Origin: Venatoribacter cucullus
GTDB lineage: Bacteria > Pseudomonadota > Gammaproteobacteria > Pseudomonadales > Oceanobacteraceae
DNA length: 64,000 nt
NCBI RefSeq assembly: GCF_016132445.1
Contig: NZ_CP046056.1
Coordinates: 2,666,501 to 2,730,500 of the forward strand
Direction: 5' to 3'
The position numbers and the translations under genes are program-made. Under the pieces are notes generated by a model. The model did no database searches, had not been told where the DNA came from, and saw nothing but the letters and a program-made list of their open reading frames with translations. Shown here piece by piece: positions 20,481-58,740 of the stretch; positions within the stretch are counted from its first letter, which is position 1; each line of letters begins with the position of its first letter.

Positions 20481-22112
20481 ATGCAGAATCACACCCCCCG
20501 CCAACCCCATATTCCCGTGGTGGCCGGCATTAAAGACCCGATCCGTGACGGCATCCGCAGCGGCTGGAACGTGCGCGCCTCCACCAGCATCGCCGATGGC
20601 ACGGTGCTGGAAGCCGATGTCATTATTATTGGTACCGGTGCCGGTGGCGGCACCACGGCGGAAATTCTCGCCAACGCCGGCCTGAAGGTGCTGATGCTGG
20701 AAGAAGGCCCACTGAAAAGCAGCGACGACTTCCGCATGGACGAACGCGAAGCCTACCGCGATCTGTATCAGGAAAGCGCCGGGCGCATGAGCAAAGACGG
20801 CGCCATGTCGATCCTGCAGGGCCGCTGCGTGGGCGGCACCACAGTGATTAACTGGACCTCCAGCTTCCGCACCCCGGAGCCGACGCTGCAACACTGGGCC
20901 AGCGAGTTCGGCGTGCAGGGCATGAGCAGTGCGGAAATGGCGCCCTGGTTTGAAACCATGGAACAGCGCCTGAGTGTGGCCCCCTGGCAGATTCCGGCCA
21001 ACCCCAATAACGCCGTCCTCAGTCGTGGTGCTACCTCACTGGGCATCGACTGGCAGACGATTCCGCGTAACGTCTCGGCCTGCTGGAACCTGGGTTACTG
21101 CGGTACCGGCTGCCCCACCAACGCCAAACAGTCCATGCTGGTCACCACCATTCCGGCGGCGCTGCAGCAGGGTTCTGAACTGGTGTACAGCGCCCGTGCC
21201 GAGCGCCTGATTATGGACGGCCGCAAAGTGCTGGGCGTGGACATCACCGCCCTGAACGACGACTACCAGCCCAGCGGCAGCCGTCTGGTGGCCAAAGCGC
21301 CGCACGTCATCATGGCCTGTGGCGCCATAAATGGCCCGGCACTGCTGCTGCGCTCAAAAGCCCCCGATCCGCACCAGCGCATCGGCAAGCGCACGTTCTT
21401 CCACCCCACCACCTTCTGCTTTGCCGAGTTCGATGAACTGATCGATCCGTACTACGGTGCGCCGCAGTCGATTTACTCCGATCATTTTCAGTGGCCGTCA
21501 GTTACCGGTCCGGTTGGTTACAAACTGGAAGTACCACCACTGCAGCCGGGCTTAACCTCGGTGTTGCTGCTGGGGCATGGGCATCAACATTTTTCGGATA
21601 TTCAGAAACTGCCCAACCTGCACGCCATGATTGCCCTGCTGCGCGATGGCTTCCACCCGCACAGCGAAGGCGGCAGCATTGAACTGGCCGGCGATGGCAC
21701 GCCGATTATCGACTACGTCATCAACGATTACCTGTGGGATGGCGTGCGCCGCTCCTGGCTGAGCATGGCGGAAATCCAGTTCGCCGCCGGTGCCAAATCG
21801 GTGCGGGTCTCGCACGTGGATTCGCCCTGGTTTACCAGCTGGGAAGAAGCCAAAGCCGGCATTAACGCGCTGGAATTCCGTTCCAATGCCTTTACCGCCG
21901 GCTCCGCTCACTGCATGGGCGGGCTGGCCATGGGCGAAGACACCACCCGCTGCGTGGTCGACAGCGATGGCAAATACCACCACCTCGACAACCTCTACGT
22001 ATTCGACGGTTCGGTATTCCCCACCAGCATTGGTGCCAACCCGCAGCTGTCGATTTACGGCATGGCCTGCAAGCAGGCCAACAAGTTGCTGGAGAAATTG
22101 CAGCAAGGTTGA
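20481..22112 (+). CDS. GMC family FAD-dependent oxidoreductase
   Basis: A 543-residue flavoprotein. The FAD Rossmann motif is GTGAGGGTTAE (51-61) followed by the acidic LMLEEG; the C-terminal catalytic pair lies in SAHCMGG (His) and TSIGANPQLSI (Asn). It should oxidise an alcohol to an aldehyde, feeding the aldehyde dehydrogenase encoded upstream; substrate unknown. The start used has AAGAGAA upstream; a longer form would overlap the Tat subunit gene. The stop codon TGA is part of the first units of a heptad palindrome. Confidence 0.88.
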   Translation: MQNHTPRQPHIPVVAGIKDPIRDGIRSGWNVRASTSIADGTVLEADVIIIGTGAGGGTTAEILANAGLKVLMLEEGPLKSSDDFRMDEREAYRDLYQESAGRMSKDGAMSILQGRCVGGTTVINWTSSFRTPEPTLQHWASEFGVQGMSSAEMAPWFETMEQRLSVAPWQIPANPNNAVLSRGATSLGIDWQTIPRNVSACWNLGYCGTGCPTNAKQSMLVTTIPAALQQGSELVYSARAERLIMDGRKVLGVDITALNDDYQPSGSRLVAKAPHVIMACGAINGPALLLRSKAPDPHQRIGKRTFFHPTTFCFAEFDELIDPYYGAPQSIYSDHFQWPSVTGPVGYKLEVPPLQPGLTSVLLLGHGHQHFSDIQKLPNLHAMIALLRDGFHPHSEGGSIELAGDGTPIIDYVINDYLWDGVRRSWLSMAEIQFAAGAKSVRVSHVDSPWFTSWEEAKAGINALEFRSNAFTAGSAHCMGGLAMGEDTTRCVVDSDGKYHHLDNLYVFDGSVFPTSIGANPQLSIYGMACKQANKLLEKLQQG

Positions 22113-22205
22113 GGGTGGGTGTTGAGGGTTAGGCGTTCAGGGTTCAGCGAGCCCGGAGCCAAACACCCAGGCGCGCCTAACGCTGAACGCCCAACCTTGA
22201 ACGAT
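22106..22205. repeat. Heptad-unit palindrome, copy A
   Basis: Left arm of 7-base units GTTGAGG, GTTAGGC, GTTCAGG, GTTCAGC; a centre with GAGCCCGGAGCC; right arm of complementary-type units read as NNNNAAC (CTAAC, CTGAAC, GCCCAAC, CTTGAAC). Units GTTAGGC and GTTCAGC occur on both arms in opposite orientation. It overlaps the GMC stop codon. One of six related elements in the window. Confidence 0.75.
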
Positions 22206-58667: not shown

Positions 58668-58740
58668 GGTTGAGCGTTCAGGGTTGAGGGTTTGGCGTGC
58701 ACCGTAGAAAACTCTAACGCCTAACGCGCAACGCCCAACA
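58668..58740. repeat. Heptad-unit palindrome, copy F
   Basis: Left arm GTTGAGC, GTTCAGG, GTTGAGG, GTTTGGC, then GTGCACC at the centre; right arm CTAACGCCTAACGCGCAACG, then CCCAAC. It begins directly after the polA stop and ends at the ribosome site of the nuclease gene. Confidence 0.77.

Follow-up and report, generated by a model that had tools for sequence, protein, structure and literature searches.

The genome of Venatoribacter cucullus, a single contig of 2827114 bases, contains a family of palindromic repeats built from 7-nt units of the form GTTNRGN at ~52 sites (54 intervals, merged, collected by pattern, script and covariance model). An earlier note on the stretch of DNA analyzed here (the window; 64,000 nt, genome positions 2666501-2730500) had described six of these palindromes, all of which are present at the reported positions when the sequence is read directly. 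With a probability of roughly one in two, we consider the copies to be one lineage-specific, dispersed non-coding gene-end repeat, which would act as a 3´ stem-loop like that of repetitive extragenic palindromes (REPs) and would substitute for a gene end between convergent genes, without a resident REP transposase. Gene-end repeats are usually explained by REP transposases, RNA hairpins or G-quadruplexes. The GTTNRGN family has the placement and the palindrome, yet it lacks both a resident REP transposase and covariation, has few G-tracts and occupies some positions at which relatives have intrinsic terminators; it thus offers a testable case of gene-end replacement in a reduced genome. Positions up to 64,000 are those of the window and larger ones those of the genome, unless a locus number precedes them.

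A dispersed family of heptad palindromes

The canonical element is 82 bp long and consists of four GTTNRGN heptads, a variable core of ~26 nt that starts with GNGC and ends with GNNC, and four inverted heptads (NCYNAAC). For 19 oriented canonical copies, the consensus is approximately GTTNAGG GTTAGGC GTTCAGG GTTCAGC, then the core, then GCCCAAC GCTNAAC CCCCAAC GCTCAAC. Among 315 perfect heptads, those of expanded arrays included, position 4 is G in 153, C in 90, A in 59 and T in 13, position 5 is A (171) or G (144), and position 7 is C (196), G (92), A (14) or T (13). The arms had been described as three to five heptads long; the usual arm has exactly four (54 of 87 arm rows, from 60 collected rows before six more copies were added, with one ten-heptad arm counted twice and with rows 999591, 1310767 and 2036718 that look like chance pairs within genes).

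A second form has a core of 15-16 nt (GTGCTCCGCAGAAAA type), and its other arm is often a near-pure heptad array. Expanded arms include TCCCAAC followed by nine GCCCAAC units, TCTTAAC followed by six GCTTAAC and then five GCCGAAC units, five units of GTTGGGC, six of GCTCAAC and, in one case, a GCTGGAC array of ~20 units. Such near-pure arrays look as if the arms had grown by heptad slippage. Some heptad-arm pairs in this genome enclose a GTAG-type REP dimer (TGTAGGAGYGRCATTTTTGTC...). We also noted further 7-nt tracts (GGGAGAC, CAAGCCT/AAGCTTC) near the elements at loci L050, L054, L059 and L044, which suggest additional heptad families.

The abundance of these units is far above expectation. 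The window holds 11 tandem-heptad tracts of at least two units, as against a range of 0-2 over 20 first-order Markov simulations. Genome-wide, three tandem GTTNRGN units matched 127 times (51 + 76) and the reversed control pattern four times, while gapped two-arm patterns matched at 26 and 54 places on each strand, with no match for the controls. That the heptads differ from copy to copy, as the earlier note had it, is correct as a statement of variation, but some copies are close relatives. Identity over 59 nt is 95% between positions 27460-27518 and 52630-52688, core included, and 98% between 52630-52688 and the copy at 2786246. Near-identical copies at dispersed positions argue for a dispersed repeat family and not merely for loose similarity. 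Of 671 BLAST matches among copies, 564 extend at most 20 nt past the element and 107 extend further.

Placement at gene ends

Genes were called with our own codon-usage script and not taken from annotation (340 genes, 87% coding). Merging the 54 hand-chosen intervals gave 52 sites, of which two lacked a sampled flank and 50 could be placed; at five of these, a called gene start that ran across the element was set after the element. The 50 sites divide into 32 tandem, 17 convergent and one divergent, compared with 78, 17 and 38 among 133 gaps of 30 bp or more without an element, such that the divergent share is lower at element sites (P=2.6e-5). The neighboring gene 3´ end lies within -19 to +22 nt of the element in 47 of 66 cases, extending genome-wide the earlier observation that copies lie directly 3´ of stop codons. 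Two element-gene distances above 3 kb reflect a stretch near 841 kb in which gene calls are lacking. The element almost fills the interval from stop to stop in several convergent gaps. Of 48 ends from 37 hand-chosen intervals, most of them near a 3´ end, 12 have a stop codon that overlaps a perfect heptad and 41 lack any five-T run within 110 nt.

For called 3´ ends within the sampled stretches of this genome, a terminator-like signal was found at none of 27 convergent ends with an element and at 16 of 35 without (P=1.7e-5). The sites are also unevenly distributed: the final tenth of the genome (2.54-2.83 Mb, window included) holds 18 of 52 and the first tenth one (P=1.5e-6 versus uniform). 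The clustering is limited to a single side of the dnaA end, the first open reading frames (ORFs) of the genome reading, by eye, like dnaA, dnaN, recF and gyrB. A separate observation concerns genome positions 2577480-2578050 (L060:3981-4551), where a gene of ~120 codons lies, cargo-like, between two element sites ~400 nt apart; we take its product to be similar to the 23S-intervening-sequence, four-helix-bundle proteins.

In the reading that we favor, the transcript of the element would fold into a long, regularly interrupted stem-loop, a REP-like 3´ barrier that may stabilize the upstream mRNA against 3´ exonucleases. Between convergent genes, it could serve as a two-way substitute gene end, with weak or factor-assisted termination. 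Copies would have spread as a non-autonomous repeat and may have survived at gene ends through the stop codons that the heptads bring and a stem able to replace a lost terminator; the length of the arms would then have been altered by 7-nt replication slippage.

Several results weigh against this reading. Tandem 3´ ends have no deficit of terminator-like signals (3/25 with an element, 9/64 without). Copies 52258 and 52632 separate genes within a probable operon that follows a thiamine pyrophosphate (TPP) riboswitch, and can hardly be complete terminators there, which suggests that the element is not a full terminator everywhere. Copy 27448 stands behind an existing terminator, and another short hairpin (GGCTCGCTGAGCGAGCC) has been retained before the element at 37215. 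The heptads carry stop codons in shifting frames, so part of the stop proximity is expected from any insertion near a gene end. With respect to the stem, complementarity between a copy's own arms (362 of 532 cells) was no higher than after right arms were swapped among the 19 oriented canonical copies (363.3, standard deviation 5.5), and the mean folding energy was -35.1 kcal/mol for native and -36.2 for swapped copies, with 273 of 300 swaps equalling or exceeding native stability. On the sense strand at tandem sites, R:Y mismatches (A.C 6, G.U 2; few cases) had no RNA wobble bias and were unlike those expected of an RNA helix under selection.

The elements do not have the form of an intrinsic terminator in the strict sense, a GC-rich hairpin with a direct T-run, as judged from the T-run count and from the terminator-like signals at element ends, both convergent and tandem. 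We also considered a Rho-assisted, bidirectional gene end, in which the distal arm (NCYNAAC), C-rich and G-poor in either direction, would resemble a Rho utilization (rut) site and load Rho on read-through. The arm composition and the YC dinucleotides on a 7-nt grid can be read directly, and every second heptad gives a YC spacing of N12, inside the N9-13 rut descriptor in the accessible part of PMC9160355. In canonical copies, however, the proximal arm is a possible pairing partner of the C-rich arm, which hence would not be free. An arm of 28 nt is also short for a rut site, and we regard this explanation as improbable.

Conservation of the heptads and pairing of the arms

The earlier note held that the ability to pair, and not the exact sequence, is conserved. 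The arm swaps do not bear this out, and the GTT, R and G positions vary little. Most canonical copies do fold stably (16 of 19 with z < -2, median -4.4). In an alignment of 14 of the 19 copies, five with degenerate outer heptads being left out, 74.8% of cells were paired compared with 74.6 +/- 0.8 after shuffling, and double changes were not in excess: at least one change on both sides was seen in 9 of 32 pairs, a level reached in 107 of 500 shuffles. Pairing at position 7 was rarer than shuffled (17 versus 22.7 of 42 heptad pairs, from 16 two-arm copies with orientation not normalized). The stem arises from the heptad consensus that is common to both arms, and conservation of pairing over sequence is not borne out. 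An RNA hairpin kept by compensatory change, as the earlier note had proposed, could claim the stable predicted stem and the pairs changed on both sides, but with pairing in no excess by any of these three measures we think it very improbable. That note had itself counted a lack of compensatory changes between arms against its proposal, the RNA-structure part of which is thereby weakened. The REP-like dispersal, the enrichment at 3´ ends and the slippage-like arms that it had also suggested are retained in our reading.

The same data can be viewed as a sequence-specific binding array, each arm presenting four sites, 7 bp apart, to a putative DNA- or RNA-binding protein, with the hairpin a by-product. 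Conservation tracks the heptad consensus and not pairing, the arms behave as independent modules, and position 4 of the innermost left heptad is C in 14 of 14 aligned copies though paired in only 4 of 14. Similar architectures with other heptads (GTCNGGN, GGGANTN) occur in other lineages, however, and could not be read by a single protein; we rate a binding array as possible but rather unlikely. Selection may act on the stem or on the heptad sequence, or gene ends may only tolerate the element.

Orthologous gaps and occurrence in other genomes

The genes flanking the elements are shared with same-genus genomes at ~65-88% DNA identity. For five orthologous gaps, the element was absent from every relative read: six of eight relatives at each of 22113, 27441 and 37215, all eight at 2266505, and five of eight at 2610008, where three were read over the first 330 nt only and G002, G006 and G004 were not among the five. 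Sites 52258, 52632 and 58669 had no syntenic match within the relatives' sampled stretches. Read by eye, some relatives carry another structure in these gaps. At 2610008, a canonical bidirectional terminator, hairpin plus T-run, occupies the element position in G003 and G005, two of the five read. At 22113, a hairpin (CCGTGGATC...GATCCACGG) is present in G003, G008, G002 and G006 and gone in V. cucullus, with other hairpins in G005 and G004, and at 37215 six of six relatives have a hairpin of some kind. At 2266505, the last codons of the upstream gene are replaced by the element, which supplies the stop, and the relatives are without an evident terminator. The mutM-rpmG gap, with a GTT palindrome in V. 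cucullus, has tandem heptads of GTCCGGC/ATCCGGC type in G003 (L137:12363-12539) and G005 (L152:19343-19465). In G008 (L068, ~5178-5370), heptad arms surround a GTAG-type REP pair in an arrangement closely similar to the copy at 864491. The V. cucullus genome is 2.83 Mb long, compared with ~3.9-4.4 Mb elsewhere in the genus.

Outside this genome the canonical form is scarce. One strict exact pattern, which fits only part of our own copies, was searched against genome_contigs (84,980 species, from which V. cucullus or near genomes may have been left out) and gave a single match, judged to be chance, in a coding-looking stretch of an alphaproteobacterial metagenome-assembled genome; a wider family sharing the core did not emerge from this search. 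Covariance model R1, run with stricter filters against 55 genomes including our own, gave 80 hits in V. cucullus (both strands) and elsewhere one weak hit in G017, a heptad array of another type; the G008 composite was not detected by R1. Under a loose pattern, three GTTNRGN units were found in 20 of 93 genomes (ours among them), for the most part in homogeneous arrays or as single tracts. Arrays of GTCNRGN occurred in 6 of 55 genomes, with overlapping matches numbering 883 in G010, 286 in G017, 33 in G021, 26 in G005, 2 in G003 and 57 in V. cucullus (one strand). In titles and abstract openings of open-licence PubMed Central (PMC) literature, we found no description of GTTNRGN or GTCNGGN palindromes, which is not proof of absence.

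This distribution bears on a further alternative, a selfish or neutral repeat tolerated only at gene ends by way of its heptad stop codons, the terminators having been lost by genome reduction. Near-private spread, with one REP-containing composite in G008, would fit such a repeat, as would the smaller genome, the stop codons that overlap perfect heptads, the coding codons replaced at 2266505 and the element within a probable operon. Against it, the constant positions are near-invariant among copies that otherwise differ freely, terminators are deficient only in convergent gaps, the setting in which losing them would be costly, and the element makes up nearly the whole stop-to-stop interval in several of these gaps. 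On balance, we find mere tolerance an unlikely account, and prefer a repeat that substitutes for the gene end.

Comparison with known repeat systems

The earlier note took known 7-base families not to be palindromic in this way, a view contradicted by the Xanthomonas GGGAATC/GGGANTN repeats, which mostly have four units and occur as inverted pairs, 70 in one genome and 75 in another, according to the accessible part of the report (PMC4692102). The same part gives them as 89-93% intergenic, with most downstream copies overlapping a stop codon or no more than 50 nt from it, as commoner in convergent (16%) than in divergent gaps (7-8%), and with transcript ends commoner at quadruplex-capable repeats than at incapable ones (PMC4692102). 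Both families thus have degenerate units with fixed and free positions, usually four, in inverted pairs at or over stop codons. Their heptad sequences, however, are unrelated; the Xanthomonas units can form G-quadruplexes while, judged from sequence, many units here (such as GTTCAGC) have no G-tracts and cannot, and a defined 82-bp canonical element like the one described here is not reported in the accessible part of PMC4692102. Heptad palindromes are already known from Xanthomonas, and the GTTNRGN family is a striking variant.

Four GGGANTN units had no match in V. cucullus, and tracts of this kind were found in 11 of 369 genomes of the class. In one 5.7-Mb gammaproteobacterium (G456), two of seven loci, L241 (four + four units) and L246 (three + four), have a core between facing GGGANTN arms; the facing arrangement is partial at L242 and L245, and L243, L244 and L247 have single arms. 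By crude ORF calls, four of the seven loci are 2-28 nt from an ORF 3´ end. The cores are longer than GTTNRGN cores. Closer to V. cucullus, the GTCNGGN arrays of a sister genus in the same family (g3; G010, G017 and G021) share a GTYNRGN consensus and the inward-facing arrangement, and in a 100-kb sample of G010 all 11 period-7 arrays were convergent or tandem and none divergent, with 7 of 11 within -9 to +18 nt of a 3´ end. Unlike the elements here, these are long homogeneous arrays with cores of tens to hundreds of bp, several of which, by eye, have GTAG-REP-like palindromes (G010, G017).

These parallels raise the possibility that geometry defines the class: four inward 7-nt units per arm, recurring with GTTNRGN, GTCNGGN and GGGANTN across gammaproteobacterial families, would reflect common machinery working in a 7-nt register, either a repeat-reading protein or slippage and selection at gene ends. 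The arms would be maintained independently of each other and of the cores, and G-quadruplexes would not be the basic reason for the Xanthomonas repeats. The higher frequency of transcript ends at quadruplex-capable repeats in the available portion of the Xanthomonas report (PMC4692102) speaks against this view, which we offer as tentative and doubtful. The GTTNRGN family provides an independent check on the role of the Xanthomonas heptad pairs.

The resemblance to REP, BIME and REPIN sequences extends to the palindromic structure, intergenic location, tens of copies and position near 3´ ends in convergent or unidirectional gaps (PMC3733652, accessible part). Gene-3´-end location together with avoidance of divergent gaps, typical of REPs, is found for the heptad element too. 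Unlike REPs, the element lacks a GTAG/CGTC-tagged end, begins and ends in heptads and is ~82 bp long instead of 20-40 bp. Mobilization by a REP-associated tyrosine transposase (RAYT) was rejected, as PF01797 (Y1 transposase) had no match at E <= 0.001 in V. cucullus and was found in 5 of 14 control genomes. Overall, the evidence supports an element that is REP-like in action yet outside the REP/RAYT family and that is matched by the Xanthomonas heptad pairs in geometry, not in sequence.

Other repeat types were less similar. The TAACTGA heptamers of Beggiatoaceae and cyanobacteria are likewise intergenic tandem heptads in short sets, though with one fixed sequence, and are described in the accessible part of PMC4679880 as mostly upstream of starts and as direct repeats, with one inverted among 170 sets. 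With respect to miniature inverted-repeat transposable elements, inverted arms are present, and a constant target-site duplication was not seen by eye in 14-nt flanks; at 2610008 and 2266505, the flanking sequence is replaced and not cleanly added to. Integron attC sites were rejected on the order of their boxes, which we take to be 5´ RYYYAAC ... GTTRRRY 3´ and which is reversed here (GTTNRGN left, NCYNAAC right).

Elements and neighboring genes in the window

The elements of the window and the features next to them are listed in Table 1. In an Rfam scan of the window at the gathering score, the TPP riboswitch was the sole match, and no family matched the heptad copies scanned.

Table 1. Heptad elements and adjoining features in the window.
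Feature	Position	Strand	Description
Outlying heptad GTTGAGG	22108-22114	+	Supplies the stop codon TGA (22110-22112) of gene 20352-22112
Canonical element	22121-22202	+	Core 22149-22174 (26 nt); model score 87.1 bits; coaD next
Short-core element	27448-27518	-	GTTCAGC GTTGGGC GTTGGGC GTTGGGA, core 27476-27490 (15 nt), then four inverted heptads; in the rpmG-mutM gap (both genes minus), 54 nt behind rpmG, beyond its own terminator
Extra right-type arm	27529-27549	.	GCTGAAC CCTCAAC CTTGAAC
Intrinsic-terminator-like hairpin	27559-27587	-	CCCGGC..GCCGGG with flanking A- and T-runs, read from sequence; behind rpmG, retained beside the element
Canonical element	37221-37302	-	In the convergent xth-rph gap; 22 nt from the stop of xth (+, end 37198) and 8 nt from that of rph (-, 37310-38026)
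Canonical element	52258-52339	+	9 nt behind a TonB-receptor-like gene, in the cluster behind the TPP riboswitch
Short-core element	52632-52688	-	Core TTTTCTGCGGTGCAC between two left heptads and four inverted ones; closely follows the 88-aa ORF 52362-52628
Short-core element	58669-58739	+	Starts 1 nt past the polA stop codon

Gene 20352-22112 is GMC-oxidoreductase-like, with family scores under the curated cut-offs. The cluster at 49899-53421 comprises the TPP riboswitch followed by the TonB-receptor-like gene, the 88-aa ORF, which had no NCBIfam match, and a gene for a PnuC-like transporter (52741-53421, missed by our gene caller), with the two heptad elements intergenic. Megablast of positions 49800-54300 against plasmids gave no match.

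Two further features were noted in the window. A perfect 22-nt inverted repeat has arms at 54216-54237 and 54464-54485, 226 nt apart. On the minus strand, the ORF at 62014-63978 contains internal repeats spaced mostly 318-321 bp, or ~107 codons, apart.

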